In this document: piece by piece, positions 4,997 to 31,154 of the stretch | Layout of the letters: each line of letters begins with the position of its first letter | Position numbering within the stretch: position 1 is the stretch's first letter | DNA from: a virus | IMG/VR virus record: IMGVR_UViG_3300036841_000213 | Coordinates: 1-31,154 of that record | Reading direction: 5' to 3' (one strand) | DNA length: 31,154 nucleotides | The notes under the pieces: generated by a model | The model's database searches: none | Seen by the model: only the letters and a program-made list of their open reading frames with translations | What the model was told of the DNA's origin: nothing | Translations under genes and position numbers: made by a program

Positions 4997-5037
4997 AGTG
5001 AGACATCTTGAGTCATAGGAAGCTCGGCGCGCATCTC

Positions 5038-7532: not shown

Positions 7533-7757
7533 TCAGACTCCCGGCAGCCGTTGCTGCAACGCGGCCGGCTCCAACTCCGCCAGCTTCTTCGCAATCCACA
7601 CGACCAGTTCCCGTTCGCGTTCCGTCAGCTTCCACGGTTCGCCTTTCAACATCAGCATCAGCACGCCACCATTGGCACAGCGGTAACGGCACAACAGATG
7701 CCAGCGGAAACTCCAGAATCCGATCGGTACCACCGCCAGGCAATCGCGCCGCGTCAT
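7533..7757 (-). CDS. Small protein coupled to prim-pol (74 aa)
   Basis: The start overlaps the prim-pol stop as ATGA, so it is almost certainly translated by coupling. The N-terminus has two Cys (CRYRC) and a hydrophobic stretch (GGVLMLML). The C-terminal half is a charged helix (LTERERELVVWIAKKLAELE). It is not recognised. An accessory of the replication protein is possible from position alone. Confidence 0.6.
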   Translation of the reverse strand: MTRRDCLAVVPIGFWSFRWHLLCRYRCANGGVLMLMLKGEPWKLTERERELVVWIAKKLAELEPAALQQRLPGV

Positions 7758-14905: not shown

Positions 14906-17775
14906 CGCACGACCCCGGCCACCTGCAGCGCATGCACGATATCCTGCGATACCTGCTCCGTCGATGGACCAACTTGCACGTTGAGCACAACATTCGGCCG
15001 CAGCGCGCCGGAAGTCAGCGCGGCCCGAATATCGCTCAGAACGGAAACAACCGGCGCAAAATCGACGGAACCGGACACGTCCACCGGCACGCCGTCGGCC
15101 GGCGCAAACTGTATGCGGCTGATAGCATCGGCCAGCGATTGCGTATTAAAAGCGCCGGCCAGCGCTGCCAGCTGCGCCGTAATCGCTGCAAAGCCGCTGC
15201 GCATGTTGTTAAAGCCGGCCGATAACTGGTTCCACAGTTCACTGCCCCAGTGCGTGATATCGGCGCGCAGCCCCACCACCTGATTGCGTGTATAAGCCTG
15301 AAATTCCGTGTACAGATCATGCACGGCCATGTACGTGAGGAACACGCCCTGCTGGATGTTTTCTTCGATCTTCTGCGTGCCCTTCGTCTGAAAGATGCCG
15401 ATAATACCTGTCACCGCGGAAATCGCGCCCGTCACCATGTTCATTGCGCCGCTGATGCCGCCGAGCGCACCGCCAAGCCCACCGCCGGCGCCCCCGGCCG
15501 CGTCGCTGCCCGCTTTAGCAGCCGTCCCGGCGCCGCCGCCCAAGCCGCCGAACAGATCGCCGACACCTTTGAAGGCCTTCGTGACTTCGCCCAGCGCTGC
15601 CGTCAGCCCGTTTCCGCCGAGCAGCGACTGAATGAACTTCCCGACGGCTGCCACGCCCTGCTGCACGAAAATCTGCGTAAACATCTTGCCGATATCGACC
15701 AGCAGCGATTTCGTGATTTCCCCGAAGCTCTTATCCCCACTCCAGAGCGCATCCGTAATATCCGATGCCGTCTGCCGCACCAGTTTCGTGATATTGCGCT
15801 GTGCATCCTTCCACATGGATTCCTGCTTGTCTAACTGCTCACTGGTTTTATGCGTAGTGTCCGTCAAAGTCTGCTGCTGCTCTGCAGCCGATTGTTTGAC
15901 CTGTACGGCTAAATCGGCCAGCGCCTTCTGCTGGTCACGCGACAAGTTAAACCAGTCTTTCGAAATCGTCTGCGTGATGGAATCCCAGGCCGCCTGATTG
16001 ATGCGCTTGATTTCTTCGCTTGACGTGCCGGCGAGCGATACCTGCTGCTTCCAGCCTTCGCGCACGTTATAGAGCATGTCATTGATTTGCTGGTCGCTCG
16101 CGTACTTAATCGATTGCATCGCACCAATGACTTTTTCTGCGCCGGCCATCTGATCCTTCGCCAGCGCCTGCGTCGCAGCATCGGCTTCCTTGTACGTCGG
16201 CGTCAGGCCGCTGATTTGCTCGTTCAGCTTTTTCGCGAGTTCGATCTGCGCCTGCCAGGCGCGAATCGAATCCATAGAAAATTTGCGATGCGCTTCGGCC
16301 ACCGCCTCAACCGCACTCCCGACACCCTGCAGGGCATCGCCGGTTTTGTGTAACTGATCGTTTAGATTTTTCTGATTAACAACCCAGGTAACAACCCCCT
16401 GCATCGCGGATTCATTGCGCTTCGTCAGCTCCGAAATGCGATCGCCGATGCCCTTCAAGGGACTGTTGACGTCCGTGTTGATGGAATGCCCCAGTTCCTG
16501 GAAATCCTTCGTCAGGCCATCGCGCAGCGTGCCCAGGTCTTCGCCGATCACATCGAAGGCAAATTTAAGCCACTCCGGCATCTTCAATGCCAGTTTGTTC
16601 CAGAGTCCGCCGATAGCCGCCAGCTCCCGCTGCGTATTCTGCAGCATGCTTTCGTTGTACTTGTTAGCCTGTTCGGCCAGCTTTTCAAAAATGGCCTGAA
16701 TGACCGCAGCCGCATAGGCCACGTAATGGATCACATTGTCAAGCGATGTCCGCCAGGCCTGCGCCCAGAAATCGCTAGCTTTGGCATTCGTATCGAGCGA
16801 GGTATTGACCAAGCCCAGCGCTTTGCCGATCCCTTCGAAAGCGCCGCTGACGAATTGCCGGATTTGACTGAAGCCGGTACTGAGCGTATCGAATAATTTC
16901 TGCGCCAGGTTCTGAATGACGCCGCTTTTAATGAACCAGTCGCCGAACGCAGAAACCCATTTCAAGGCCTCCGTCACCCAGCCCGATACTTTCTGGATCG
17001 CCGGCCCGAACAGCGTTGTGAAGGCCTGCGCCAGCGCTTCCACGCCTTTACCTGCCGCTTCGGAAAAGACCGTTTTGACTCCGCCCAGCGTGGCATTCAA
17101 ACCTTTTAAGGCCTCCGAACTGGAAAGCGCTTTGATGCCGGTATCGAGCAGCCAGCCGCCGACCTTTTCCGCGATCTGCAGCGCCGTCATGCCGGTTGCT
17201 GCCCCGGCCGCAATCGTCGCCACACTGCCTAAACTCGGTATCAGTTTCGACGCCGCGCCGCCCAGCGACGAGAGGAAACTACCGGCCGTACTCGACTGCT
17301 TGCCGGTATTCTCTAACGCCGTACCCGTCGCCTGCGCCGCCTGCGCCACCTGCACGGTTTTCGCGGCTGCCTCGCTGGCGGCCGTTGTGGATGCCTTGAA
17401 GGCATCCGTCACCTTCGTGGTAGCCGCAGCCGCATTCGTTTCCGCGGTTGCCGTCGCGGCCGCCGATTCAGCTACTTTTTTCGTCGATTCCGCAGCCGAT
17501 GCCGCGGCCGTCGCCGTCTGCACGAATTGCGCATTCGATGCATTCAGCGCCGTATTGAGCGCTGCCATGGATTGCGTCGTTTCGGCGTTCGCCAGGCCAG
17601 AGGTTTTCACCGACACCGAGAGCGCATCGAAGGATTTCGATGCGTTCGCAGCCGAAGCCTGAATGGAACCGACTGCCGCATCCGTTACTTTCTGCGCCTC
17701 CGCAATGGAACGGTTATAGGCATCCGTCACCGCATGGAGAACAACACTGACGGTTCGATTCAGGCCTTCAGGCAC
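14902..17775 (-). CDS. Tape measure protein
   Basis: A 957-residue protein. Residues 1-180 are Ala/Thr/Ser-rich coiled coil, then hydrophobic Gly/Ala segments occur near 180-230 and 340-370. A long charged helical part (about 380-690) and a Gly-rich hydrophobic stretch (about 740-800) follow, with a C-terminus ending in LNVQVGPSTEQVSQDIVHAL. This is the standard make-up of siphovirus tape measures, which set tail length and pass into the host during DNA entry. By the usual 1.5 angstrom per residue the tail would be about 140 nm. It overlaps the chaperone extension upstream and Dit candidate downstream. Confidence 0.93.
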   Translation of the reverse strand: MPEGLNRTVSVVLHAVTDAYNRSIAEAQKVTDAAVGSIQASAANASKSFDALSVSVKTSGLANAETTQSMAALNTALNASNAQFVQTATAAASAAESTKKVAESAAATATAETNAAAATTKVTDAFKASTTAASEAAAKTVQVAQAAQATGTALENTGKQSSTAGSFLSSLGGAASKLIPSLGSVATIAAGAATGMTALQIAEKVGGWLLDTGIKALSSSEALKGLNATLGGVKTVFSEAAGKGVEALAQAFTTLFGPAIQKVSGWVTEALKWVSAFGDWFIKSGVIQNLAQKLFDTLSTGFSQIRQFVSGAFEGIGKALGLVNTSLDTNAKASDFWAQAWRTSLDNVIHYVAYAAAVIQAIFEKLAEQANKYNESMLQNTQRELAAIGGLWNKLALKMPEWLKFAFDVIGEDLGTLRDGLTKDFQELGHSINTDVNSPLKGIGDRISELTKRNESAMQGVVTWVVNQKNLNDQLHKTGDALQGVGSAVEAVAEAHRKFSMDSIRAWQAQIELAKKLNEQISGLTPTYKEADAATQALAKDQMAGAEKVIGAMQSIKYASDQQINDMLYNVREGWKQQVSLAGTSSEEIKRINQAAWDSITQTISKDWFNLSRDQQKALADLAVQVKQSAAEQQQTLTDTTHKTSEQLDKQESMWKDAQRNITKLVRQTASDITDALWSGDKSFGEITKSLLVDIGKMFTQIFVQQGVAAVGKFIQSLLGGNGLTAALGEVTKAFKGVGDLFGGLGGGAGTAAKAGSDAAGGAGGGLGGALGGISGAMNMVTGAISAVTGIIGIFQTKGTQKIEENIQQGVFLTYMAVHDLYTEFQAYTRNQVVGLRADITHWGSELWNQLSAGFNNMRSGFAAITAQLAALAGAFNTQSLADAISRIQFAPADGVPVDVSGSVDFAPVVSVLSDIRAALTSGALRPNVVLNVQVGPSTEQVSQDIVHALQVAGVVR

Positions 17776-18430: not shown

Positions 18431-19204
18431 TCAGGCCACCCGCCCGAGCGTCGATTCGTCGCCCAATGGCCGGCGCGTGCGCAGCGTATCCGGCGCGCCT
18501 TCGCGCTCTACCGTCACATCGCCGTACTGCCGAAGCGTGCAATTCAGCTTCATCGCGCCCGTGCCGGTAAAGGCCAGCGGCAGCGCCGTAACGAATGCCG
18601 CAAAGGTAACCACCAGCGTTTCGCCGGCTGCGTATTCCGTTTCGATCTTGAACGGCCGCACTTCGTGCGTTTTCGAGAGATGAATTAGGCCGGTCAGTTC
18701 GTTATGCGTGGGATCATCCGGCCAGTAATTCACCACCAGCGCAATATCCCCCGGCGTCGATAAGCCCGGAATCTGCAGCACGACCTTCGAGGCATTTGCC
18801 AGGTTATTCACGTCCAGCATAGAAATCGCCGGCGATGGAATCGTCAGGCTTTCCACGTTCGATATCTCCTGCCAGGTCGGCTCCGAACTGGCATCGTTAC
18901 AGGTTCCTAGGTAGACGTGCGACGGAACCGGCACGAAGCCGGCCGGCGTTACGTTCGGATCGGCCGCGATCTGCGAACAAATCGAAGCCTTCGTTACGGA
19001 AATGGAAGCGCCGGCCGTATGCGCCGCGGCCGTCGTGCCCTGCTGCCCGCGTATGATCTGGTAGGTATCGCCGGAGCCTCCGGTTACCTTCACCTTTTCG
19101 GTTTCAATCTGGAGCATGTCGCCGGTTGCTACGGCGTCGTGCCCGGTATTCAGTTCTAATGTGGTGTCAGTCGCCGAAATATCGGCCGCCAACGTCGTAG
19201 GCAT
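18431..19204 (-). CDS. Major tail tube protein
   Basis: A 257-residue protein. Residues about 1-75 form an N-terminal beta module with the pattern TTLELNTGHDAVATGDMLQI, ETEKVKVTGG and IIRGQQGTTAAAHTAGA, often found fused to phage structural proteins and possibly exposed on the tail. The rest (PTWQEISNVESLTIPS, GDIALVVNYWPDDPTHNELT, GETLVVTFAAFVT) matches the tail tube fold that polymerises as hexameric rings. GGGAG lies upstream of the ATG. Its place between terminator and chaperones is standard. Confidence 0.85.
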   Translation of the reverse strand: MPTTLAADISATDTTLELNTGHDAVATGDMLQIETEKVKVTGGSGDTYQIIRGQQGTTAAAHTAGASISVTKASICSQIAADPNVTPAGFVPVPSHVYLGTCNDASSEPTWQEISNVESLTIPSPAISMLDVNNLANASKVVLQIPGLSTPGDIALVVNYWPDDPTHNELTGLIHLSKTHEVRPFKIETEYAAGETLVVTFAAFVTALPLAFTGTGAMKLNCTLRQYGDVTVEREGAPDTLRTRRPLGDESTLGRVA

Positions 19205-19223
19205 CTAATCGTTCTCCCTTCGT

Positions 19224-19625
19224 TCACAAAAATAAAATCTGCACGTTCACGGTTGCCGCGCGTACCGTACCCTCCGCGCGTGTAAACTGCACCCGATTGA
19301 CGAACGTCTGCATGCGCCGTTTACCGATGTATAAGCACTGATCTTCAAACAGGTAGTTCAGAACGGTTGCGATTTCGCGCACCTGCTGAAAGCCTTTCTC
19401 GGGATCGGCATCGTTTGAATACGCCCGCAGCACCTGTTCGGCCCACAGCTGCCTGGATTGATCGATAGCCCGGTCAGACGTCGCCGAAAAAGCATCGAAT
19501 AACACGTAAGGGTACGGCGTCGCCTCCGGCACATAATCCCAGATGCCGGAAACCAGCAGCAGCAATTCTTCCGACTGTTTCAGCCGGTCATAGAGCACCT
19601 GCTGCAATGCCAGAAAATCAATCAT
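19224..19625 (-). CDS. Tail terminator / completion protein (DUF3168-like)
   Basis: A 133-residue protein. LQQVLYDRLKQSEEL, the VPEATPYPYVLFD turn, SRQLWAEQVLRAYSND and the FVNRVQFTRAEGTVRAATVNVQIL ending match the DUF3168 tail-completion family. Such proteins form the ring that ends tail polymerisation and joins head. An ATG at 19625 overlaps the upstream stop by one base (TGATG). A GTG one codon earlier is possible. Confidence 0.85.
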   Translation of the reverse strand: MIDFLALQQVLYDRLKQSEELLLLVSGIWDYVPEATPYPYVLFDAFSATSDRAIDQSRQLWAEQVLRAYSNDADPEKGFQQVREIATVLNYLFEDQCLYIGKRRMQTFVNRVQFTRAEGTVRAATVNVQILFL

Positions 19626-19951
19626 CACGGCCCGCCGGCTCCGATCTGCTGCGCCAGGCGCACATCGAACAGCTGCAGCTCACGCGCCAGCGCCGCCTGC
19701 AGAAATGCATTCGGCTTCACGTAGCGCGTGCCGAAAATCACATAAGTGGCATACGGCACAGCAGCCGTTATCGCGAATTCATTTTCCGACGGCCGCTGCG
19801 CGTAGATATTGGTTCGCAGCCGGCCAGTTCGCAGCGGCGCCGCGGCCGCGGCTGCCCGTGCCGCCTCCGTCGCAGCTTCGTCCAGCTCGCGCGCCACCAG
19901 CACCGGCAGGTCGCGCAATTCGACAAAAAGGCTATCGAGTGCAGCATTCAT
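19625..19951 (-). CDS. HK97 gp10-like head-tail protein
   Basis: One hundred and eight residues from the ATG at 19951, which overlaps the upstream stop as ATGA with GGAAGGG ahead of it. AAPLRTGRLRTNI, the strand ENEFAITAAVPYATYVIFGT and the PNAFLQAAL helix are hallmarks of the gp10 tail-completion family. It probably works at the neck next to the head-tail adaptor. Confidence 0.9.
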   Translation of the reverse strand: MNAALDSLFVELRDLPVLVARELDEAATEAARAAAAAAPLRTGRLRTNIYAQRPSENEFAITAAVPYATYVIFGTRYVKPNAFLQAALARELQLFDVRLAQQIGAGGP

Positions 19952-20277
19952 TCGATGCCCTTCCCTTCCCACGCCGTCAGTACCTGCTCGCGGTTGCGTT
20001 CATCACGGTTGTAAATCGCCGTGACATTGAGTATCCGGCCGCGGTAGAGCAGGCGCATGGTTGCATCGATATCGCTTCGATGCCGCAGCGTCACCAGCCA
20101 CCAGATACGCGATTCCATCTGCTCCGCCTGCGCAATTTCCAGGCCGGATTTCTGCTCGAACTTCGCCCAGGCCCAGGTCACATGTTGCCAGTCGAGCGCT
20201 ACCGCGTCGCCGGTTGCGCCGGCTACCGGCAGCGGCCGCTGCACTTCGACAAAGGAACGGAGTTCGCCGGCCCGCAT
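19948..20277 (-). CDS. Head-tail joining (head closure) protein
   Basis: A 109-residue protein with the pattern of the phage head-tail joining family (SPP1 gp16-like). It starts MRAGELRSFVEVQRP, has WAKFEQKSGLEIAQAEQMES, and ends with LYRGRILNVTAIYNRDERNREQVLTA. It would close the portal channel after packaging and bind the tail terminator. It is six bases after the connector gene and overlaps the gp10-like gene. Confidence 0.9.
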   Translation of the reverse strand: MRAGELRSFVEVQRPLPVAGATGDAVALDWQHVTWAWAKFEQKSGLEIAQAEQMESRIWWLVTLRHRSDIDATMRLLYRGRILNVTAIYNRDERNREQVLTAWEGKGIE

Positions 20278-20283
20278 AATTCC

Positions 20284-20934
20284 TCAGGAAAACTCGAACT
20301 GCCGGTCAGACAGCAGCGAATCGATAAACGGAACGGTCTGTATGTTCGCATCCGTTGCTTCCTCGCGGTTTTCATAGAGCGCGCCGATACGTAACAGCAG
20401 CCAGGACTGCACATCCGCCGGCACATCTTCCGGCAGCTCGCCGTAACCGGCCCGGTAGCGCACCCGCAGCAAATCTTCCGTCAGCGCTTCGAAATCGGCA
20501 TCCCCGCAGCCGCAGGCGCAACCGCCACCGCAGCAGGTACCGAAGATGCCGGCGTTAAACACGATGCGGCCCGGCGTCGTATACAGCCCCTCACTGGTTT
20601 GCTCGATGCGGTAATCCGTACCGGCAACCAGTGTCTGATCGCCGTAAGTAATCAGTTCGACGCTGAGTAGATTCGTCCACGGCAGCTCAAGTACGCAGCA
20701 GCCGCAGCGCGTGCGCAGCTCCTGCGGATAGCAGGCCGTTTCATACTTCGTGTCGATCAGCGCCAGGCGCAATATTTTCGTTGCCGTGCGCACCGCCGAC
20801 TGCGCCAGCGTCTGCATGACGTAGGCTTCCTCTGACGTTTCCAGCGCGCCCAGCTCCTCTAGACGCAGATGCCGCTGCACCTGCTCCCAGCTAACCGGCA
20901 GCGTCGCCGGAGGTTCGATCAGCGTCGTTTTCAT
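20284..20934 (-). CDS. Head-tail connector (gp6-like) with Cys-rich insertion
   Basis: A 216-residue protein from the ATG at 20934 (GGAG upstream, overlaps the preceding micro-ORF stop as ATGA). The helical start (VSWEQVQRHLRLEELGALET, SEEAYVMQTLAQSAVRTATK) and VRYRAGYGELPEDVPADVQSWLLLRIGALYENRE fit the HK97 gp6 adaptor family, which forms a ring under the portal. Within the beta domain are TRCGCC and GTCCGGGCACGCGDADF, eight Cys where the family normally has a short Gly-Pro loop. The Cys cluster may bind metal or form disulfides. Confidence 0.85.
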   Translation of the reverse strand: MKTTLIEPPATLPVSWEQVQRHLRLEELGALETSEEAYVMQTLAQSAVRTATKILRLALIDTKYETACYPQELRTRCGCCVLELPWTNLLSVELITYGDQTLVAGTDYRIEQTSEGLYTTPGRIVFNAGIFGTCCGGGCACGCGDADFEALTEDLLRVRYRAGYGELPEDVPADVQSWLLLRIGALYENREEATDANIQTVPFIDSLLSDRQFEFS

Positions 20935-21023
20935 AGCCGCTCCGCTCCCGTTCGGCAGGCCTTTCCGGTTGCTGCGCAGGAATAGACTGCGTGAAAAGGC
21001 CTGCCGTTCGAGAGTTCGCACAT
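20931..21023 (-). CDS. 30-residue Cys micro-ORF coupled to the connector
   Basis: ATG at 21023 with GAGGAAAG upstream; the stop TGA overlaps the connector ATG as ATGA. It encodes MCELSNGRPFHAVYSC and then a Lys/Arg/Cys tail with three Cys in all. Coupling at both sides favours translation, possibly just to deliver ribosomes to the connector gene. Coding status is uncertain. Confidence 0.4.
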   Translation of the reverse strand: MCELSNGRPFHAVYSCAATGKACRTGAERL

Positions 21024-21028
21024 AAGGC

Positions 21029-21127
21029 TTAGCTTTCCTCTTCGTCGCCGTCTGGCTTCGGCCGGCGTTCGGGATCCGGCTCCGGCTTCGGCTCCGGTTT
21101 CGGTTGCGGTTTCGGTTGCGTACCCAT
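21029..21127 (-). CDS. 32-residue Pro-Lys/Pro-Glu micro-protein
   Basis: ATG at 21127 lies 5 bases after the capsid stop, preceded by a strong GGGAGGT. The product is alternating Pro with Lys, Gln and Glu (QPKPQPKPEPKPEPDPE) and an acidic tail (DGDEEES), an extended TonB-like linker. It lies between capsid and connector, where head decoration genes are often found. It could be a flexible capsid-associated peptide. No homology is claimed. Confidence 0.6.
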   Translation of the reverse strand: MGTQPKPQPKPEPKPEPDPERRPKPDGDEEES

Positions 21128-21132
21128 TGCGT

Positions 21133-22722
21133 TTACCTCCCTTCCCGGCGTCGCTGCGCCGCTGCTTCCTCTGCCCGTTCGTTCGAGCGTCGCGCCGCCG
21201 ATACCGTCGGATGTTCGCCGGCTGCTGCGCTGCTGCTACCTTCCACCTGCGCCTGCTGCCGATCCTGCGCGTTCTCGAATCGGCCGCGCTGCGTATCACG
21301 GCCCGTAACGCCATCGCCACCGAGCAGCACATAGGGAGATCGCTCCGTACCGGATTTGGTCGTAATCGGCGCCTTAAACCAGGGAGTGCCGCCAACGCGA
21401 ATCACAAACCGGAAACAGGTAATGTCGTAATCGAACCAGAGATGAATCGAAATATCCTGCCGCAGGCCTCCGACTTTGGTTGCCGTCAGATACGCTTTCA
21501 AATCGACCAGCGCCACGTCGCCGGTTTCGCCTAACGGCGCCGCGGCATCCGTCACGACAATCGGCCGGCCCATCAGCGTGCCATACGGCGCCGCCGACAA
21601 GCCGCCCGGAGGCAGATAGGCCGGAAACCCGCTAACCGGGTTTCCACCCGCTCCCACGATCGGGAAGTACAGCGAAAGCAGCGCTGCCTGCGCATCCTGA
21701 CTCATGATCCAAACCGCCGAACGCGACGCCGAATAGAACGCCGTCCACATCTGCACGATGTTCTGGACGGTAACCGTTTTCGCCGGCTGTGTGCCCGGCC
21801 GCGGCACAATCACGGCCGCAGGCGATGTGTAGATACCCTGCGGTTCGCCGTTCCCGGTACCATTCAGAATCGCATCGGAAATCTTGTAATCCATCTTTTC
21901 CGGCGCCTTCCGGCGCAGCAGCGCCGCCAGCGCCGGCGCATCCTCGAGCAGTTCATCCGATACCGGCACCAGCACATAGAGCTTATTCAGCGCCACCGTC
22001 ACTTGATCGAGCGCCAGTTTCGAATTCTTTTTCAACGCGCATTCTTTATCCCAATACGCCTGAATGCCGCCAATCGTGTCCCAAGGCGTCGAACTGTCAA
22101 TCGGAACCACCACGCGATTGCTGGACGTTGTGATATTGTCCGTCAGCGGCAGCAGCGAATCCTCCGCCATGATGAGACTTTGAATGTCTGCCCGGTAATC
22201 GGGAGGCACCGCATAGCCGCCATCTGCATTGACGCCTTCCGTCATCACGTTGTCAGGCGGCCCGGCCGAATTGAGCAACCGCGGATCGGTAGGCCGGCCA
22301 TGAATGCCGGCGTTGCGTACCGCCTGCGCGAATTCGCCGAAATCGCGAAAGCCGAACGTACCCGCGGCCCGGTTTTCGACCTGCACCCGATGCCCGCTGC
22401 GCTGCTGCGCTTGCTGCTGCGACTGCGGCGCCGGCCGCGGCTGCAGACCGGCTCCATTACCGTTTCCGTTTACGTGTACGACCTGGACGCCGGCCGTATG
22501 CGCCGGCCCGGCGAGATGTTGGTTCATCACCTCGAGCTGCTCACGCCGCGCAACATCGGCCAGCACACGGGTCTGTTCTTGCATGGTATTGTCGAATTCC
22601 TGCACCTCGGCATCCGTCAGGTCGCGTCCTTCCTGATCCGCCATCGCCATGATTGCGGTAGCTCTCGCGCCCAAATCTGCTGATCGCTGCCGCTGTTCCT
22701 GAAGTGTTACTACTGCTGCCAT
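21133..22722 (-). CDS. Major capsid protein (HK97 fold)
   Basis: A 529-residue protein. Residues about 1-70 are helical coiled coil, a built-in scaffold (delta) domain. A Gln/Asn-rich linker follows (about 85-115), then the fold proper with FGEFAQAVRNAG, GGYAVPPDYRADIQSLIMAE, VVVPIDSSTPWDTIGGIQAYW, KMDYKISDAILNGTGNGEPQG and FDYDITCFRFVIRVGGTPW, all typical of HK97 gp5. The last about 55 residues after the usual end are charged and low complexity (DRQQAQVEGSSSAAAGE...RRREGR), an unusual extension. It overlaps the protease gene by 13 bp. The protease should remove the delta domain. Confidence 0.93.
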   Translation of the reverse strand: MAAVVTLQEQRQRSADLGARATAIMAMADQEGRDLTDAEVQEFDNTMQEQTRVLADVARREQLEVMNQHLAGPAHTAGVQVVHVNGNGNGAGLQPRPAPQSQQQAQQRSGHRVQVENRAAGTFGFRDFGEFAQAVRNAGIHGRPTDPRLLNSAGPPDNVMTEGVNADGGYAVPPDYRADIQSLIMAEDSLLPLTDNITTSSNRVVVPIDSSTPWDTIGGIQAYWDKECALKKNSKLALDQVTVALNKLYVLVPVSDELLEDAPALAALLRRKAPEKMDYKISDAILNGTGNGEPQGIYTSPAAVIVPRPGTQPAKTVTVQNIVQMWTAFYSASRSAVWIMSQDAQAALLSLYFPIVGAGGNPVSGFPAYLPPGGLSAAPYGTLMGRPIVVTDAAAPLGETGDVALVDLKAYLTATKVGGLRQDISIHLWFDYDITCFRFVIRVGGTPWFKAPITTKSGTERSPYVLLGGDGVTGRDTQRGRFENAQDRQQAQVEGSSSAAAGEHPTVSAARRSNERAEEAAAQRRREGR

Positions 22723-23471
22723 AGAGAGTCATACCGCCCTTTATTGGATTTTTGGTACTGCTCGAACAATCTGCGATTCATAGCCGCAAGCCGCGCCCGG
22801 CGCGCATCCGCCTGCGGCCGTTTCACCGCCGACACCTTCACCCAGGCCGGCAGATTGCGAAACCGCATCGCGGCCGGATAGCAGGCAGCGATCGGTAAGG
22901 CTTCCTCGACCTGCTCGCCAAATCCTTCATCTACTGCTTCCTGCGCCGAAAACCAGGTTTCCTGATCCATCCACGCAGCCAAGCGATTGCGGCCGGCCGC
23001 GGAATGGCGCTGATACGCATTGATCAGGTTTTCTTTCGTCTGGTCCAGCAAATCGGCCAGCGTGCGCAGCTCTTCCGCTCCACCGAATGCAAAAGCCATG
23101 GGATTATGGATCATAAACGAGGCATTGCCGGCCAGAACCACACGCGACGCAGCCATAGCAATCACCGAGGCAATCGACCAGGCCATGCCATCGACATAAG
23201 CCGTCACAGGAACGGGCGAACGCAGTAACGCGTTATAGATCGCCAGGCCTTGAAACACATCGCCGCCCGGCGAATTGATGCGAACCACTACTTCATCAAT
23301 GCCACGCAGGCCTTCCAGCCGCTGCGCAATGGATTTCGGCGTTTCGCCGTTTTCATCAGAGAACAGGCCGGCGCCGTCGATCACGTCATACAGGTAAATC
23401 GTTTCGGTTCGCGCCGCGGCGCTAGCTCGAACCCGCGACGCGGTTGCGCGGGATAGAATGGTTTCCGTCAT
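22710..23471 (-). CDS. Head maturation protease (ClpP-like)
   Basis: Serine protease of the ClpP/SppA fold, 253 residues from the ATG at 23471; a GTG at 23504 would add 11. VVRINSPGGDVFQGLAIYNAL and YVDGMAWSIASVIAMAA place the catalytic Ser near residue 103, and FMIHNP supplies the His about 25 residues later. It would cut the capsid delta domain during prohead maturation. It overlaps the end of the portal gene by about 50 bp and the capsid start, so all three are translationally linked. Confidence 0.9.
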   Translation of the reverse strand: MTETILSRATASRVRASAAARTETIYLYDVIDGAGLFSDENGETPKSIAQRLEGLRGIDEVVVRINSPGGDVFQGLAIYNALLRSPVPVTAYVDGMAWSIASVIAMAASRVVLAGNASFMIHNPMAFAFGGAEELRTLADLLDQTKENLINAYQRHSAAGRNRLAAWMDQETWFSAQEAVDEGFGEQVEEALPIAACYPAAMRFRNLPAWVKVSAVKRPQADARRARLAAMNRRLFEQYQKSNKGRYDSLWQQ

Positions 23472-24993
23472 GTCCGTTCGTTCGTAGGGAATTGGATTTG
23501 ACACCAGCCGGCAGCAGCTCGAACTGCTGCCGGCCCATCTGTAACAACTGCAGGCGCCGATAGGCCTGCGTTCCTGCCTTCACATCATCGGTAGCCGGCG
23601 CCTCCGCCTGCTCCGGCGTAAACAAATCACTGCCGCCACCTGCGCCCGCGTTCGCATCCGGCGACTGCTCGCCACGCGTTACCAGCGCTTCCGTCTGCGC
23701 TTCGCGGTACGCTAAATCCGCTTCCGCCTGCTCCAACTTCACGCGCGCCAGCGGCTCGAATTCGTCTAAGGGTACGGTATTCAACTGCACGGTACGCAGC
23801 TCACCGTTCGTCACGTTGTCCAGTTCTTCCATCTGGCGCACATCGTTGATGGAAAGAAACCCATAGCGCAGGCCGATGCTATAGGCTTCGTAGCGCGTCT
23901 TCAGATCGCCCTTCAGAATCGGCGTCAGCGAATGCCGCGTGAAAAATTTCGACGTGCGAACGCTGCCTTCGAACAGCTTGTAATCCACTTCCTGCTGCAG
24001 CCGGATCGTCGCCGGCAGGAAGGTTTCGTTAAAGCAGTCAATTTCGAGCGCCTCGATGTTCGCATAACTCGCTTCTTCGAGAATGCCGATCTTATGCTGC
24101 GGCACACGAAACCAGCGGCAGATTTCCTGCGCCTGAAATTGCCGGCTTTCTAGGAACTGCGCATCGCGCAGCGGAAGCTGCAACTGGTTATACTTCATGC
24201 CGGATTCTAGAATCGGCACTTCCCCGGCATTGCGCCAGCCCATGTAGCGTTCGCGCCAGCTCCGTTTAATCGCGTCGCTATGTTCCTTATCCGGCAGTTT
24301 CCCCGGATACTCCATCCAGCCCGAGAGAAACGGCGCATTCTGAAAACCGACCGAACCGAAAACTTCCAGCTCTTTACCGAACGAAATCGTTTGCGACGCC
24401 TGCGCCACCGTACTCAATCCCAGCAGGCCATTCGTACCGATATTGCGCCAATGCAGCATGTTGTCGGCCGAAATCGTGCGATCCGCTTCGCCGACATTAC
24501 CCCGCACGTTGTACAGCAGATTCCCGCGCGCATCGCGCTCGACCTCCACCTGCTGCGACGGAATCAGCCAGAGCTGATACGGATAGCCGTCGTTGCCCCA
24601 GGTAATTTCAGCGTACGCATTGCCCCAGGCCAGCATCTGCATCACAACGGCTTCGCGAAAATTCATGGCCGGCATATCGTCGTTCGGCCGGCGATTCAGC
24701 AGGTACCAAACCCGCACATCCGAACGCTGCCGCGAGGCGCCATCCGGCAGCCGTTCGAAAACTTCCCATTCGAGCATCGCCAGCGTTTCGGCAATCACGC
24801 GCATGCAGGCGAACACTGCCGAATACGTCAGCGCCGTGTCTGGCGTTACCGGATAGGAACCGGGCACACGCCGCGGAGGCAGCCACCCACCGGCCGTTTG
24901 CCGTGGATCCGGCTGGTACTGATTCAGGAAGCGCACCGCACGCGCCAGCAGCGCCAGCACGGGATTTCGCGGCAGCGGCAGAGCATCCGTCAT
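23422..24993 (-). CDS. Portal protein (HK97 gp3-like)
   Basis: A 523-residue protein of the HK97 portal family. It has TYSAVFACMRVIAETLAMLE and WYLLNRRPNDDMPAMNFREA, the YPYQLWLIPSQQVEVERDAR strand and MLHWRNIGTNGLLGLSTVAQ. These are followed by RWFRVPQHKIGILEEASYAN and TRYEAYSIGLRYGFLSINDV. It forms the dodecameric channel at one capsid vertex for DNA entry, and binds terminase and the gp6-like ring. The last about 100 residues are a variable, acidic Ala-rich tail overlapping the protease gene. Confidence 0.95.
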   Translation of the reverse strand: MTDALPLPRNPVLALLARAVRFLNQYQPDPRQTAGGWLPPRRVPGSYPVTPDTALTYSAVFACMRVIAETLAMLEWEVFERLPDGASRQRSDVRVWYLLNRRPNDDMPAMNFREAVVMQMLAWGNAYAEITWGNDGYPYQLWLIPSQQVEVERDARGNLLYNVRGNVGEADRTISADNMLHWRNIGTNGLLGLSTVAQASQTISFGKELEVFGSVGFQNAPFLSGWMEYPGKLPDKEHSDAIKRSWRERYMGWRNAGEVPILESGMKYNQLQLPLRDAQFLESRQFQAQEICRWFRVPQHKIGILEEASYANIEALEIDCFNETFLPATIRLQQEVDYKLFEGSVRTSKFFTRHSLTPILKGDLKTRYEAYSIGLRYGFLSINDVRQMEELDNVTNGELRTVQLNTVPLDEFEPLARVKLEQAEADLAYREAQTEALVTRGEQSPDANAGAGGGSDLFTPEQAEAPATDDVKAGTQAYRRLQLLQMGRQQFELLPAGVKSNSLRTNGHDGNHSIPRNRVAGSS

Positions 24994-25012
24994 CGAGAAC
25001 CCCCGCAGCCGC

Positions 25013-25018
25013 TAAAAT
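25013..25018 (+). promoter_or_regulatory. -10 box of the antisense moron
   Basis: TAAAAT lies 6 bases before the ATG at 25025, as in the two cassette genes at 721 and 28967. No Shine-Dalgarno and no good -35 are seen, so the message may be leaderless. Confidence 0.45.
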
Positions 25019-25024
25019 CAGTGC

Positions 25025-25339
25025 ATGGCCGATGAACCCGCCAATGGCGATATTCCGTTCTCTGGCAATCCAACCGTCGATGCGGCACTGAAACGCATCC
25101 GAGCGAAATTCCGCGACCTGGAAGACGCCATGATCGTACAGGCCCATCTCGAAAAACGACTAGGCGAACAGGTGAAGCGCCAGACCGAATTGTGGGACAA
25201 CCACGATGCCTCATTAACGGCACATCAGCAGCGGATAAGCGACCATGACGCATGGATGAAACACTTCGAAGAAAAACTCGATGCGTTAACAAACATCCTG
25301 ATGCGCCGTCACGGCGGCCCCGAAGCCACAGAGCAGTAA
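25025..25339 (+). CDS. Antisense moron: coiled-coil protein (104 aa)
   Basis: This is a plus-strand gene inside the minus-strand head operon. After a short acidic N-terminus the protein is almost all charged helix (AALKRIRAKFRDLEDAMIVQ, LEKRLGEQVKRQTELWDNHD, KHFEEKLDALTNILMRRH), a likely coiled-coil dimer. It fills the gap between portal and the 82-residue gene exactly, ending 6 bases from that gene's stop. Such lone reversed genes (morons) are usually expressed from the prophage and give host-level effects such as superinfection exclusion. Function here is unknown. The opposite-strand ORF over this interval has a worse composition. Confidence 0.7.
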   Translation: MADEPANGDIPFSGNPTVDAALKRIRAKFRDLEDAMIVQAHLEKRLGEQVKRQTELWDNHDASLTAHQQRISDHDAWMKHFEEKLDALTNILMRRHGGPEATEQ

Positions 25340-25345
25340 GATTCA

Positions 25346-25594
25346 TCATTGCCCGAATGCTCCGTACTCGTCGCGCTGGCTTTCGTTCTGCGCTTCGCGT
25401 ACCGTCAAGCCGCCCAGCGCCATCAAATCCAGCCGCACAATCGCCGGCCCTTCCGGTTTCATTTGCAGCTCGAGCGAATGCACGCCGGTCAGCTCGTAAC
25501 CGTCCAGCAAAACACGCGTCCCGATCAGCCGCGTACCATTCGCTGCGAAGCCCTTCGGCACAATGATTTCGATATGCGGCCGGTTCGAGGTCAT
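25346..25594 (-). CDS. Small head-region protein (82 aa)
   Basis: It starts over the terminase stop as ATGA. Predicted beta-rich (HIEIIVPKGFAANGTRLIGT, VLLDGYELTGVHSLELQMKP, AIVRLDLMALGGLTV), similar in pattern to small proteins found between terminase and portal in other siphophages. No specific function assigned. Confidence 0.7.
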   Translation of the reverse strand: MTSNRPHIEIIVPKGFAANGTRLIGTRVLLDGYELTGVHSLELQMKPEGPAIVRLDLMALGGLTVREAQNESQRDEYGAFGQ

Positions 25595-27345
25595 AAGCCG
25601 GCCAGTTCATCGAAACTGCCTTCCCTTGCTTCCTCCGGCACACGAAACGGGAGCGTGCGAATTTCCGGCCGGCCGTCATAAGCAGACGGCGCCGCCAGAT
25701 ACGCTTTAATCACGCGATCAGCCGCCAGGAACATCGCCACGGCCGCATCAATCTTATTCGCCCGCGTCTGCTTGCGCGGAAAGTAGTTATCGTTCGCATC
25801 GCGCCGGCAGACCACGTTCGATACCATCCAGGCCACTGCCGGATTGCCGTCGTGCGCGATTTGCTCCGCGAGTAGCCAGGCCTCCGTTTCTTTCATCGCC
25901 GGCGAAAAAATCGCCGTCGCCTGCTTCGTATCTGCAACCGGCGTCTCAAACGATCGGCGATTCAAAATCGAGAGCAACGGAGGCAACTGCCAGGGATCAG
26001 CCGCCATCTCCCGCACATCGTAAACCCGGCCGATTGCTTCCAGTTCATCGGCCAGCGCTTCGAAATCCTGGATGTTACCCGCTACGACCGTGATGTAACC
26101 CTGCTTCGCCCAGGTTTCGAGCAGCGCATTCTCTTCCTGCGCGAGCGCCCGCTCCGGTATCCACAACCGGAACACAAGCCGATGCCGTTCGCAGCCCGCT
26201 TGCGGAGGAAACCAGAGACAGACCGCGATTAAATCGCTCTTCGTCGCCAGGTCTAAACCGACGTAACAGAATTCTCCCGGCTGCGGCTGCACGAAGCCTG
26301 CGGCAGCGCGCCGCCAATAGCTCAGATCGAGCCAGGCCGCAAACGCATTGACCCACTGATTGCCGCGCGTCGTCTGAAATGCCGCCAGCGATGCCGGCGA
26401 ATGCTTCGCCTTCTGCGCCAGCGCCTGAATGTCACTCAGATAAACCGATACGCCCAGGTTCGGATTCGCTTTCGGCCAGTTCGCCGGCTCTAATGCATCG
26501 TCGCCTTCATCCAGCGTGTAAATCGCACCACCGACGGTTTCATCCGCAATCGTGCCTTCCAGAATCTTCGTCAGGTAGCTGCGCACTTCAAAACACACGC
26601 CGTACTGGTTCGCGCCGGCCGTCGTAATCGCAAACAGCAGCGGCTGCAGACGCGAACCTGTCGCCGTTTCGAGAACGTCCCACAGCTCGCGCTTGCGATG
26701 CGCATGAAACTCATCGATGATCGCGCCATGAATATTCAATCCATCCAGGTGCTTCCCTTCGGCCGATAGCGGTTTGAAGCTCGACGCCGTGCACAACTGC
26801 GTAATGGCATTCGCCAGCACCCGCACGCCAAAGCGGCGCCGGAATCTCCAGTCGCGTTCTACCAACCGCTGCGCATCGGTAAACGAAATGCGTGCCTGCT
26901 CGCGCGTCGTCGCCGCACTCACAACCGTCGCGCCGGCTTCGTTATCGGCGCACAGCAGGTATAAGCCGATGCCGGCTACCAGGGTTGTTTTACCGTTCTT
27001 TCGTGCCACGTCCAGATACCAGAGCCGGAAGCGCCGCGCACCGGTATCACGGCTGCGCCAGCCAAAAACCGTTGTCACCTGAAACAACTGCCACGGCTCG
27101 AGCCGCATATGCAGACCGCGTGTCGCCCAAGTACCATGCACGTGACCGAATCCTTCGAGAAATTGACAGACACGTTCCGCCTGCTCCACATCGAACCGAT
27201 ACGGCCCGCTATCCGCCCAGCGCTTCAAATCCTCAAGCTGCCGCTGACAGGCCAGCCGAACCCAGCGGCAGGCCAGGATTTCGCCCGAGACGATCTGCTC
27301 TGCGTATGCGAGCGCCTGTTCGACATGGGGAAACGCGGAAGGCAT
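25591..27345 (-). CDS. terL: Terminase large subunit
   Basis: A 584-residue packaging motor. The ATPase part has the deviant Walker A ARKNGKTTLVAG at about residue 115 and Walker B GAIIDEFHAH at about 210, followed by the ITTAG coupling motif. The nuclease part has VGLDLATKSDL (first acidic residue) near residue 370 and ANKIDAAVAMF (last Asp) near 545. This is the HK97/phage_terminase_1 type, which makes cohesive ends. It follows the small subunit after about 80 bp. The nearest Shine-Dalgarno (AAAGG) is about 20 bases off, so the exact start is less sure. Confidence 0.95.
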   Translation of the reverse strand: MPSAFPHVEQALAYAEQIVSGEILACRWVRLACQRQLEDLKRWADSGPYRFDVEQAERVCQFLEGFGHVHGTWATRGLHMRLEPWQLFQVTTVFGWRSRDTGARRFRLWYLDVARKNGKTTLVAGIGLYLLCADNEAGATVVSAATTREQARISFTDAQRLVERDWRFRRRFGVRVLANAITQLCTASSFKPLSAEGKHLDGLNIHGAIIDEFHAHRKRELWDVLETATGSRLQPLLFAITTAGANQYGVCFEVRSYLTKILEGTIADETVGGAIYTLDEGDDALEPANWPKANPNLGVSVYLSDIQALAQKAKHSPASLAAFQTTRGNQWVNAFAAWLDLSYWRRAAAGFVQPQPGEFCYVGLDLATKSDLIAVCLWFPPQAGCERHRLVFRLWIPERALAQEENALLETWAKQGYITVVAGNIQDFEALADELEAIGRVYDVREMAADPWQLPPLLSILNRRSFETPVADTKQATAIFSPAMKETEAWLLAEQIAHDGNPAVAWMVSNVVCRRDANDNYFPRKQTRANKIDAAVAMFLAADRVIKAYLAAPSAYDGRPEIRTLPFRVPEEAREGSFDELAGL

Positions 27346-27422
27346 CTGGGGAAGGAAAAATACCTTTCAAAAAAATCTCAGACCAGGAGCACAGAGCAGC
27401 AAGCCGCAGATAGTAGGTGGTA

Positions 27423-27896
27423 TCAGGTATAGGTCATGCTGATCTGTGCCCAGTGGTCAGAGCCAGCCTCATCGGAAGCTCCGACATCAGCAAGCATGTT
27501 GATTCGTGTTCGCGAAGCCGGCGAGAACCCCAGTTCCTGAATGCATTGTCGGAGTATGACGGACTGGGAGTTCATCACATGCACGGCCGGATGAACCGTG
27601 CGAATGCCTTTGTATCCGCGCGACGTGTAACCGACCGCGTTGATTTCCTGCGCTGCTTTCGTATACAGATCAAGGGCAATCACGTACTGCACGAGAATCG
27701 CGGTATCCACGCCGCGCAGCAGATCGGCAGGACAGTTCGCGAGCGTATCACGCCAACTGACCCGTTGAAAGTCATTCATCCAGGCAGGTGGTTCAAGCGA
27801 TGGGAAACCGGCCGGCTCCGGTTCGTTCTCGACGGTTCGGCACGGCTGCAGGGTACCGTGCAAGCCTTTAATCAGCGTCGGAACCGGATTCGACAT
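27423..27896 (-). CDS. terS: Terminase small subunit (P27 family)
   Basis: A 157-residue protein. WRDTLANCPADLL, DTAILVQYVIALDLYTKAAQ, MNSQSVILRQCIQELGFSPA and SRTRI are the expected helices and closing motif of P27-type small terminases, which recognise the packaging site and control the large subunit. GGGAGG lies 8 bases before the ATG. First gene of the late operon. Confidence 0.9.
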   Translation of the reverse strand: MSNPVPTLIKGLHGTLQPCRTVENEPEPAGFPSLEPPAWMNDFQRVSWRDTLANCPADLLRGVDTAILVQYVIALDLYTKAAQEINAVGYTSRGYKGIRTVHPAVHVMNSQSVILRQCIQELGFSPASRTRINMLADVGASDEAGSDHWAQISMTYT

Positions 27897-27966
27897 GTGG
27901 CAATCCTCCCGCCCGGCAGCAACCTCGCAACCAAGATTTCACCGGCAAACTAACAGTTTTGTGAGA

Positions 27967-27996
27967 ACTATACTCCCGGCATTTTCCCGAAGTCAA
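27967..27996 (-). promoter_or_regulatory. Late operon promoter
   Basis: On the minus strand TTGACT (27996-27991), 18 bp, then TATAGT (27972-27967): five of six matches in each box. The predicted start near 27960 leaves a leader of about 65 bases before terS. No other promoter of this quality was seen in the structural genes, so it may serve the whole 21-kb operon. Confidence 0.75.
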
Positions 27997-28328
27997 GAGC
28001 GAATTACGAAAATTTGTCAGCCTTTGCTTCGCCTTCGCCGACGCTAGGGAATTGTACCGGCCGGAACCCCCGCCGCCCCCACTCATCGATTTAAAGCCCC
28101 CGCCTCCCCAACATTCCCATCTGGGCGTATCTATCCGTACCGCAACGATTTAGCAGGAGTGAGGTAGGACGAGAAAACAGAGTGTCCCCAAAGCCGATGC
28201 CTCACACTGCATGTGGGTTTCGCACGGCGGGAACCGCTCCCTAGTGCACGCTCGCTTTCTTTCGAACATCCCCCAGGCCTCCGAGGCTGCTTATAATAAC
28301 GCGCGCGAGCGCAGGTAATTCTCGGGAA
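27997..28328. other. Intergenic region upstream of the late promoter
   Basis: I see no gene. The region is GC-rich with short runs (CCCCGCC) and no strong palindrome. From 28231 it is homologous to the start of the window. A TTATAAT at 28290-28296 in the HNH 3' flank is conserved as TATAAAT in copy A (54-60) but its use is unclear. The packaging (cos) site, if any, should lie between here and terS; I cannot identify it. Confidence 0.4.
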
Positions 28329-28667
28329 TTATTTTGCGTATTTCTTTCGATTTGTTTCGCGCGAATGGCAGGATTTGCATAATGCTTCGAGGTTTTCCTC
28401 TTCAAAGCGCAGTTCCGGATAATCCCGCAACTCCCGCCGGTGGTGAATCTCCGTCGCCGCCGTGACCCTTTCGTCCGACAGGCAGCGCACACACAGCGGA
28501 TGCCGCGTGAGATAGACGCGACGGAACTTCACCCAGGTGTAATCGTAACCGGCTTCATGCCGCGAACGCTTCGGCAATTGCGCCGCATGCTGCCGGCAGT
28601 AGCCGTCGCGCTCCGCTTGCTGTGAGCAATACGGCCGCAGGCACGGCACGAAGACCCGGATGGACAT
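28329..28667 (-). CDS. HNH endonuclease, copy B
   Basis: A 112-residue homologue of 101-433 with the same CVRC, EIHH, EENLEALCKSCH motifs. I begin it at the ATG at 28667 because AGGAGGGG lies just upstream, while the frame's earlier ATG at 28715 has no support. It differs from copy A mainly near residues 15-35 and at a C-terminal YAK extension. Position about 430 bp upstream of terS is that of packaging-linked HNH proteins in HK97-like phages. Confidence 0.9.
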   Translation of the reverse strand: MSIRVFVPCLRPYCSQQAERDGYCRQHAAQLPKRSRHEAGYDYTWVKFRRVYLTRHPLCVRCLSDERVTAATEIHHRRELRDYPELRFEEENLEALCKSCHSRETNRKKYAK

Positions 28668-28966
28668 GAAGCCCCTCCTGGGAGTATACTGCCGAACTAC
28701 CCCCGAGTCTCTCATGCGGCCCGCCGTTCAGTCCCGCTTCTCTCTCCCGCTGAACTAGTCTGATCACTCCCCGCGAACTACAGTTTTGGCGAGCACCCAG
28801 CCCCTTTGACATGCGCGCGACAACAGATCAGCAATAGAGAATAACTGAATATTCACTATGAACACTGGTAAAAACTAGATACTGTATCTAAATCCGCGCG
28901 CGGCCGGACGTCCCGCGGCCGCTACACAGGTTTACGAGCCCGGTTTTTGAATCTAAAATACGGCAC
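28668..28966. promoter_or_regulatory. Divergent intergenic region, copy B
   Basis: TATACT on the minus strand (28688-28683) is the likely HNH -10 with a weak -35 (GAGACT) 17 bp upstream. The conserved block keeps GAATATTC (28847-28854) and AGATACTGTATCT (28877-28889). On the plus strand TTTACG (28931-28936), 17 bp, TAAAAT (28954-28959) and 7 bases lead straight to the ATG at 28967, so the plus-strand gene appears leaderless. Confidence 0.6.
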
Positions 28967-29335
28967 ATGGAAGCTCTGACGCCGCGCTACCTGCATTCGC
29001 TCGAAAACCGCATCGAATACCGTCAGCGCCTTTGTGCCGAACTGGAAGAACAACTGGCGAATCCACGCCTGAACGAAAACCAGCGACAACATCGCCGGCG
29101 CAAAAAACAGCGCTTGCAGGGCGAAATCGCACAATTGCAGACGCAACAGAGCCGCATCAAAAAAAAGCCGCACATGCCAATGGACCTCGCGGAACCAGAG
29201 CAGAGCCGGCCAGATCAGCCGCACCCCGGAAACAGAGAGCCAGGTCTCACATTGCGGCTGGAGTTTGTTTGTCCGCAGTGCGGACATCCGCACTTCTGCG
29301 AATTAAAACCAGACCTCGAGCACTTCGCCGAGTGA
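28967..29335 (+). CDS. Small coiled-coil / zinc-ribbon protein, copy B
   Basis: A 122-residue homologue of 721-1092. Conserved parts are LENRIEYRQR, LNENQRQHRRRKKQR and CPQCG near the C-terminus, here with further Cys and His (PHFCE). The linker (residues 65-95) is unrelated in sequence and Pro-rich. The promoter's -10 ends 7 bases from the ATG and there is no Shine-Dalgarno. It overlaps the convergent gene at 29303 by 33 bp, the same as in copy A. Function unknown; nucleic-acid binding is plausible. Confidence 0.7.
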   Translation: MEALTPRYLHSLENRIEYRQRLCAELEEQLANPRLNENQRQHRRRKKQRLQGEIAQLQTQQSRIKKKPHMPMDLAEPEQSRPDQPHPGNREPGLTLRLEFVCPQCGHPHFCELKPDLEHFAE

Positions 29336-29596
29336 TGCCGGCAGCGCCTTGACCAGGCGCGCCGCTTCGAATCCCGTCACCGCCAATGCATCCGCCGGCA
29401 GGTAGCGCCGCGCCGCTTCGAGCGAATCCGTGTACACAATTCCAACGCGCAGATTCGGCCGTCCGTCGTCAGCAAGCTGAATGACACCGTACGGCATGGG
29501 AGGGCAGCCGTGCACAATCGCCCACGCCTGCAGCGGTTCGCTGCTTCGTGCCGGCTTCTCATGCTTCGAGAACCGAAGCCGCAATTGCCGCGCCAT
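29303..29596 (-). CDS. 97-residue cassette protein, copy B
   Basis: Homologue of 1060-1353. I take the ATG at 29596 (AGGGTG 6 bases upstream) over a GTG at 29605, giving the same length as copy A. RPNLR-GIVYTDSLEAARRYLPADAL and GFEAARLVKALPASLGEVLEVWF are conserved while the N-terminal 30 residues are not. It overlaps the upstream zinc-ribbon ORF by 38 bp. Function unknown. Confidence 0.7.
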   Translation of the reverse strand: MARQLRLRFSKHEKPARSSEPLQAWAIVHGCPPMPYGVIQLADDGRPNLRVGIVYTDSLEAARRYLPADALAVTGFEAARLVKALPASLGEVLEVWF

Positions 29597-29921
29597 ACTG
29601 CTCACCCTGTTTCTTCTTTCGCTTCAAAAAACGGCCGCGGCGCATCGCCCGTTGCTCTGCTGCTTCTTGCTCGTGCATGAAGTAAGCCGCGATTTGATCA
29701 TTCAGCTCAACCACGGCATCGCAGCAAGCCTTCGAGCCATCAGTGCGAAGAAGTGCAAACTGTCGGCACTCCGCACAATAGACCCGACAAATCTCGTAAC
29801 GCGGCAAACCCTGCATCCCGACAAGATCATCCTGCCGAATCAAAAAAAATGCAAGACCACAACGGTTACAGAACTCCGCGCAACGGATCCATCCGGAAGG
29901 CCTGCCGCGACCGCACGTAAT
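29559..29921 (-). CDS. Zinc-ribbon ORF downstream of recombinase, copy B (start unresolved)
   Basis: Same Cys pattern as copy A: CAEFCNRC, FFLIRQDDLVGM, ICRVYCAEC, KACCD. The C-terminus is longer and basic (RRGRFLKRKKKQGEQYG). No ATG, GTG or TTG lies between the upstream recombinase frame and the first Cys pair; the coordinate uses an ATT codon only as a marker. A TTG in FF-L-IRQ could start a shorter form lacking the first Cys pair. Frameshifting from the recombinase would give a zinc-tailed recombinase. Confidence 0.5.
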   Translation of the reverse strand: MTCGRGRPSGWIRCAEFCNRCGLAFFLIRQDDLVGMQGLPRYEICRVYCAECRQFALLRTDGSKACCDAVVELNDQIAAYFMHEQEAAEQRAMRRGRFLKRKKKQGEQYGAAIAASVLEA

Positions 29922-30894
29922 CGAGCACCATCTGCAAATTGCGATGCCCAGTACGATGCATGATCGCCAGCTCCGACGCACCCAGCTCAGCCGCCGTCGT
30001 CACCATACCCGCCCGCAAGGAATGCGAACCATAACCGCTTGCATCCTCGCCAATAGTTTTGAGCGTTTCTTTCACGATGCCGTTGATACGTTGCCGGCGA
30101 ATGCTGCGTTTCTCGATTCGCCCGCTGCGATTCATGCGCAAAAAAATTGGCCCCGGTTCATCGCCGCGGATCCGCAGCCAGGCCTGCAACAATCCGAGCG
30201 GACACGTTTCCGGTACTGCACCCCGCGGAATGCGCACTTCACGCCCATAGCCTTGCTGATCAGTCTTCGAACGCGCCTGCCACAACACCAGCACATCGCC
30301 TTCGAACGCCACTTGCGTAGTCTCCAGCGCTGCTAGTTCACTCGCGCGCCAACCGGCCGCAAAACCCAATACCAGTAAAGCCCGATTACGCGTGTCAATC
30401 GGCCGCTGCGTTGCCAGCTTCGAACTCATGGCGCGCAACAAATCGACCGTTAACGCTTTCCGTGCGCGTCTCTCCTCGGTCCATTGCCGGCGTGCGCAAC
30501 GTAGCAACGCAGCGGCCGGCTCAACAATCTGCGCCTGCCCCGCGGAACGATGACGATCGGCGATCGCATGCAGAAAAATTCCGACCGTGGCGAAACGATA
30601 ACCGCGCTGTTCGAGACACCAGACCGTGAACAGTTCGACCATCTCCGGCAAGGCCGGATACGCAGAACAGTTCGCCTGCTGACACCAGGATTCAAACTTG
30701 CGCCAGGCGTAATCGTAGGCTCGATACGTGTTCACCGCCTTTCGGGTTTGCTGCCAGCGGCTGCGCGTCAAAGCGAGGCTCTCCAGAGAGATCAACATGA
30801 GAATTTGCGGCCCGAAAACGCCCCGTTTTCGGCCTGAAACACTCAGATCGGCACATCCGGACAAAACTTGAGCCCTGATATTGCTGTTTCGCAC
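29866..30894 (-). CDS. Tyrosine recombinase/integrase, copy B
   Basis: A 342-residue homologue of 1593-2621 with all catalytic residues (AAGWRASEL, RSKTDQQG, HSLRAG, GHRNLQ, LDYVRS). By eye about ten of the first 34 residues differ from copy A but only about two dozen of the other 308. This suggests translation really begins at the Met at residue 33 (base 30798). Both copies appear intact, so either could act. Confidence 0.9.
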   Translation of the reverse strand: MRNSNIRAQVLSGCADLSVSGRKRGVFGPQILMLISLESLALTRSRWQQTRKAVNTYRAYDYAWRKFESWCQQANCSAYPALPEMVELFTVWCLEQRGYRFATVGIFLHAIADRHRSAGQAQIVEPAAALLRCARRQWTEERRARKALTVDLLRAMSSKLATQRPIDTRNRALLVLGFAAGWRASELAALETTQVAFEGDVLVLWQARSKTDQQGYGREVRIPRGAVPETCPLGLLQAWLRIRGDEPGPIFLRMNRSGRIEKRSIRRQRINGIVKETLKTIGEDASGYGSHSLRAGMVTTAAELGASELAIMHRTGHRNLQMVLDYVRSRQAFRMDPLRGVL

Positions 30895-31154
30895 AGAAAC
30901 GCGCTAGGTTGCGTCGAAAAAAGCGGGGTGGCTACACTATACCGGACAGGGCAAATCGACTGAACCTGGCTCGTTTCTGAAACATTTACGCCCTATAACG
31001 TTTTGGCCGCGGAAGAGGATTCAGAGGTTTTGGCGTCATAATTCCGGTTATGACCGTTATCTTACGCTTCTGAACCCTGGAAGCCTTCGCATTTTGGCCC
31101 TAAACTAGCTACTGGCGACAGAGCGCCGGAAAAGAAGCCCATCACCTGCAAGTG
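30895..31154. promoter_or_regulatory. Recombinase upstream region, copy B, ending in 127-bp exact repeat
   Basis: It matches 2622-2881 with scattered differences up to 31027, then exactly to the end. The inverted repeat GTCATAATTCCGGTTATGAC recurs at 31035-31054. No gene is seen. Continuing the match, the next base would be 2882, leading into rep. Confidence 0.8.

Follow-up and report, generated by a model that had tools for sequence, protein, structure and literature searches.

A 31-kb virus record as the probable genome of a circular phage-plasmid with two cassette alleles

The DNA analysed here, referred to as the window, is an entire IMG/VR-type virus record of 31,154 bases, and its two ends are therefore contig ends. 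We consider it very likely that the window derives from a probably cos-packaged phage-plasmid of the HK97 type that would replicate through iterons and RepA and that carries a Cre-like recombinase. The true molecule would in all likelihood be a circle of about 28.24 kb with one allele of a variable cassette (allele A) or about 28.27 kb with the other (allele B). We infer that this very molecule is circular; the packaged form is likely linear and bounded by cos at either end, and the circular form would be the intracellular one. On this reading the record should not be handled as a linear fragment of 31 kb in which genes are duplicated, but as a circular genome that is nearly complete, measures about 28.2-28.3 kb and comes with two alleles of the cassette.

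Terminal repeat and proposed genome closure

The window is made up of two diverged arms, a backbone that is present once, and a short exact repeat:

1-2754, no strand: arm A, cassette allele A (HNH, small ORFs and Cre-like recombinase), from the probable cos end (MAFFT alignment of A and B; three-way identities)
2755-2881, no strand: 127-bp repeat, first copy, start of the shared backbone (127/127 to 31028-31154; 121/127 in the relative G001)
2882-28236, no strand: backbone present once (exact-repeat scan; synteny with the relatives G001, G003, G004 and G006)
28237-31027, no strand: arm B, cassette allele B (MAFFT alignment; contiguous in G001 at 89%)
31028-31154, no strand: 127-bp repeat, second copy, at the contig end, read as an assembly seam (k = 127)

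A preliminary description of this DNA had reported that the window ends in a 127-bp exact copy of an internal segment, with mismatches immediately before it. The exact-repeat scan confirmed this, since 2755-2881 and 31028-31154 are identical at 127/127 positions, the second copy ends on the last base of the window, and the base preceding the repeat is A in one copy and G in the other, with identity falling to about 80% further upstream. A chance origin of the match is excluded. The exact match forms the tail of a diverged direct duplication of 2.75-2.8 kb (1-2754 versus 28237-31027), inside which other exact blocks reach 59 bp.

In a de Bruijn graph, neighbouring edges overlap by exactly k bases, and a contig that re-enters a used vertex therefore ends in a k-long copy. 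The JGI metaSPAdes command in a paper using JGI assemblies specifies -k 33,55,77,99,127 (PMC11256825), and the length of the repeat equals the largest k of that command, which was taken from the paper and not from this record. This agreement supports the earlier proposal that the contig stopped where its graph path rejoins itself. The 127-bp terminal repeat is most likely a de Bruijn assembly seam, which is an ordinary assembly effect. The window resembles known k-mer terminal-overlap artefacts, such as those of strain bubbles and circular contigs, in that the exact overlap at the contig end has the length of the largest k; it differs in that the overlap runs from an internal position to the end, because two alleles would have been threaded, and simple end-repeat detection misses it. 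Searching viral contigs, a set from which near-identical records may be absent, with a 30-base exact pattern from the repeat yielded no second contig through the seam. At the left end, arms A and B have just 18 bp in common at their starts, not 127, so this end is no simple graph fork. The short overlap counts against the fork reading there and can be accounted for only by a physical end or a coverage end at base 1.

Closure was assessed against G001 (IMGVR_UViG_3300036857_000487; 26,363 bp), a relative from another metagenome. It aligns to window 20188-31154 and then continues unbroken from window 2882 through rep to 18820. Relative to the window, G001 is thus circularly permuted, starting and ending within tail genes (window 18820 and 20188), and it is without the piece that matches window 18821-20187. 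Its single cassette gives the order terS-HNH-recombinase-rep, and the relative G004 likewise has one cassette, downstream of terS. The preliminary description had placed a single HNH gene directly upstream of terS and a single recombinase directly upstream of rep, which is how they are arranged in G001, and had proposed a circle of 28,273 bp joined from 31154 to 2882. The join is supported, G001 being contiguous there; the exact length applies only with allele B (31154-2881 = 28,273), and the alternative closure from 28236 to 1 through arm A gives 28,236 bp. None of the relatives was found as a closed circle.

The sample would contain both cassette alleles, and in assembly one would have been threaded on each side of the shared backbone. 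The contig path would then lead from the probable cos end through arm A, the shared backbone and arm B, and would stop after exactly one k-mer, at the point where it rejoins the backbone (k = 127). Both this assembly mechanism and the cleavage at cos are steps that we infer. More generally, circular contigs may be hidden when threaded strain alleles make the k-mer overlap run from an internal position to the end, and contig ends may mark cos sites.

The two cassettes and alternative readings

The following features of the cassettes were annotated:

101-433, minus strand: HNH endonuclease, allele A (PF01844)
1593-2621, minus strand: tyrosine recombinase, allele A, 342 aa (PF00589)
2762-2781, no strand: 20-bp inverted repeat GTCATAA-TTCCGG-TTATGAC, candidate lox/dif-like site, upstream of the recombinase and inside the 127-bp repeat
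28329-28715, minus strand: HNH endonuclease, allele B (PF01844)
29866-30894, minus strand: tyrosine recombinase, allele B, 342 aa (PF00589; best solved relative P1 Cre)

The arms align end to end in MAFFT with 2165 of 2805 columns identical (about 77% overall), and their recombinase genes are about 90-94% alike across most of their length. Both HNH genes and both recombinase genes are intact and look to be under purifying selection. The two recombinases are identical at 310/342 positions (dN 0.044, dS 0.29), and the three pairwise distances among those of A, B and G001 are roughly equal (dS 0.28-0.32). The alleles diverge most in the part of the cassette that separates HNH from the recombinase (626-1500 versus 28863-29780; 42-74%), and over most of this middle part, to about A position 1250, allele B and G001 are 93-98% alike. 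Given this similarity, the middle of the cassette reads as the site of a separate exchange.

The best PDB match of the recombinase is P1 Cre (E 2e-11), and NCBIfam models of Xer recombinases match it about equally well, below cut-off. The translations keep the R, K, HSLR, GHRN and DY motifs, in agreement with the Cre-type series R-K-H-R-H/W-Y. The enzyme probably resolves dimers at the candidate site just upstream of its own gene. The inverted repeat is identical in A, B and G001. It was rejected as proof of a lox site, because 0.33 such repeats are expected by count in the 308-bp intergenic region and it is unremarkable on that measure. The G004 contig also ends a few bases before it would reach the corresponding position. 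Methylobacterium plasmid pVL1_6 was considered as an equivalent element and set aside, as it has a related recombinase and tape measure but no annotated terminase or RepA_C.

Within the 127-bp repeat A and B show 0 differences and each differs from G001 at 6 positions, a pattern that appears to fit two alleles sharing one backbone better than a pair of unrelated genomes. The argument is weakened by contig selection and by the conserved island at 2755-3000, which is 95% identical to G001. The island also weakens the case for a sharp recombination boundary at 2755, since the segment is conserved against G001 too. The same observations bear on a chimera of two phage genomes, in which arm A and the left backbone would come from one and the right backbone and arm B from the other, making the closure from 31154 to 2882 inexact for both. 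The nearly equal distances among the three recombinases fit such a chimera, and with a conserved island a common k-mer need not imply a shared backbone; the 0 versus 6 differences speak against it, and in both cases the synteny of G001 points to the same closure. We regard a chimera as quite improbable. A single molecule that truly carries both cassettes, as a heterodimer or a tandem duplication of which the contig is a true part, would explain why all four HNH and recombinase genes are intact and seemingly under purifying selection, and exactly the observed order would result if a co-integrate formed at the candidate site upstream of the recombinase gene. Against this stand the match between repeat length and the assembler's k (PMC11256825), the contig end exactly after one k-mer, and the single cassettes of G001 and G004, which together make it a very improbable reading. 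An integrated prophage or a linear element, with the repeat as a biological terminal or attachment repeat, could be imagined from the tyrosine recombinase and the excisionase-type helix-turn-helix protein. However, one copy of the repeat is internal and not at the opposite end, flanking host DNA is absent, G001 is circularly permuted, RepA and iterons are present, and the 20-bp site, with one mismatch allowed, was found in none of 396 genomes of the candidate host's phylum (that of a Bryobacterales MAG). We give this explanation hardly any credence.

Two alleles on one circular backbone remain the preferred reading, and their origin might lie in reassortment, a suggestion that we hold to be unlikely. 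Two phage-plasmids in one cell would fuse at the recombinase core site, 2762-2781, into a site-specific co-integrate, and cutting at cos with cos-to-cos packaging of the heterodimer would swap the segment from cos to the core site, exchanging HNH and recombinase between phage-plasmids and leaving the backbone unmoved. If true, this would account for alleles that differ from cos (base 1) to 2754 and are identical from 2755.

Packaging genes and the candidate cos site

The structural and packaging genes and the candidate site are as follows:

14902-17775, minus strand: tape measure protein (phrog_24)
21133-22722, minus strand: major head protein, HK97 type (phrog_10)
22710-23504, minus strand: head maturation protease (phrog_94)
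23422-24993, minus strand: portal (phrog_12)
25591-27345, minus strand: terminase large subunit (phrog_9)
27423-27896, minus strand: terminase small subunit, P27 family (phrog_83, TIGR01558)
28231-28240, minus strand: probable cos core GGAGCGGTTC, read towards terS (contig-end alignment; similarity to the VarioGold cos)

By its predicted genes (terminases, portal, protease, head, connector and tail) the element is a siphovirus of the HK97 type. Downstream of the tail genes, a 72% direct repeat (12307-12385 and 13677-13755) lies between neighbouring minus-strand ORFs of 197 and 457 aa, possibly a duplicated tail-tip or fibre domain.

The HNH gene is adjacent to terS and terL in the window, and this synteny is kept in G001 and G004. 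Base 1 of the window and the contig end of G003, which comes from another metagenome and is about 77-79% identical to the window over the late genes, both fall inside GGAGCGGTTC, between HNH and terS. G003 ends with GGGAACCGC and the window starts with CTCCCTAG, the two meeting on one base, 28237. G001, G004 and arm B continue across the site, and GGGAACCGCTCCCTAGT is invariant in all crossing sequences. The cos of VarioGold has been mapped between HNH and terS, with a 10-nt 3' overhang CGATCGGTTC (PMC9658991). GGAGCGGTTC occupies the equivalent place and is identical to this overhang at 8/10 positions; on the opposite strand the window has CC after GGAGCGGTTC, and VarioGold has CCC after its overhang. 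In distant relatives by TerL, about 40 contigs start near terL; for 22 of them the start falls 400-1300 bp upstream of the gene, against about 9 under a uniform distribution. From the coincidence of two independent contig ends, the similarity to the VarioGold cos and the clustering of contig starts, we regard base 1 as probably an end at cos and not as arbitrary. The exact cut position is uncertain by several bases, and blunting of a 10-nt 3' overhang should stop both contigs a few bases earlier. An A/T-rich motif at contig starts of distant relatives (3/24 versus a background of 4.7%) was not used.

The window shares a P27-type terS with VarioGold, a Variovorax phage, and with HNH-terminase cos phages such as Marinobacter phage AS1, and its TerL is related to theirs at 42-45% (42% identity for VarioGold). 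In those phages HNH adjoins terS with cos between them; the window is arranged alike, and a cos there is probable. In contrast, VarioGold is a 39-kb chromosomal prophage without the rep module of the window, and the DNA beyond its cos differs.

Replication module, relatives and host

The region that follows the first copy of the repeat encodes a replication module and a putative regulator, with a primase-polymerase further on:

2930-3976, plus strand: RepA_C replication initiator, 348 aa (PF04796, E 2.4e-19, above cut-off; plasmid RepA homologues)
3968-4057, plus strand: three 22-bp iterons GACCGCTGAAACGGTAGGGTGA, probable plasmid origin (conserved in G001)
4413-4859, plus strand: helix-turn-helix/excisionase-type protein (PF12728, phrog_66)
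7754-9943, minus strand: primase-polymerase/helicase (PF09250, PF05272)

RepA_C and the three iterons, both kept in G001, agree with the plasmid-type origin noted in the preliminary description, and the element would replicate as a plasmid through them. Capsid, portal and terminase genes thus occur together with a plasmid initiator and an iteron origin, and an extrachromosomal circle is consistent with the permuted, single-cassette G001. No partition or stability genes were recognised among the ORFs scanned, several small ones being without a match. As in P1-like phage-plasmids, phage structural and packaging genes are combined with a RepA/iteron module, and a Cre-like tyrosine recombinase adjoins a candidate recombination site. 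P1 differs in its headful packaging, whereas the window is of the HK97 type, about 28 kb long and with a probable cos.

Plasmid and phage collections held no exact DNA match, and among 50,697 phage records only one RepA relative was found, at 28% identity. The best plasmid relatives of RepA are on plasmids of Granulicella tundricola (Acidobacteriota), at 42-44% identity; these plasmids are large (115-300 kb), and no close relative of the window phage was found there. A similar RepA (39-47%) occurs in 7 of the 396 genomes from the phylum to which the Bryobacterales MAG belongs. The Granulicella relatives and the phylum genomes make an Acidobacteriota host plausible. The genome scan with TerL gave one weak fragment only, in the Bryobacterales MAG, and nothing specific was found in the literature on phage-plasmids in Acidobacteria. 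Phage-plasmids as a kind are already known; this one is itself new, and its lineage, possibly of Acidobacteriota, has no close relative in the phage and plasmid collections searched. Around the helix-turn-helix gene, a palindromic motif GTCTCATGAGAT(ATCTCATGAGAC) is repeated at 4387-4403, 4850-4868 and 4973-4998, and these copies look like operators of the regulator.
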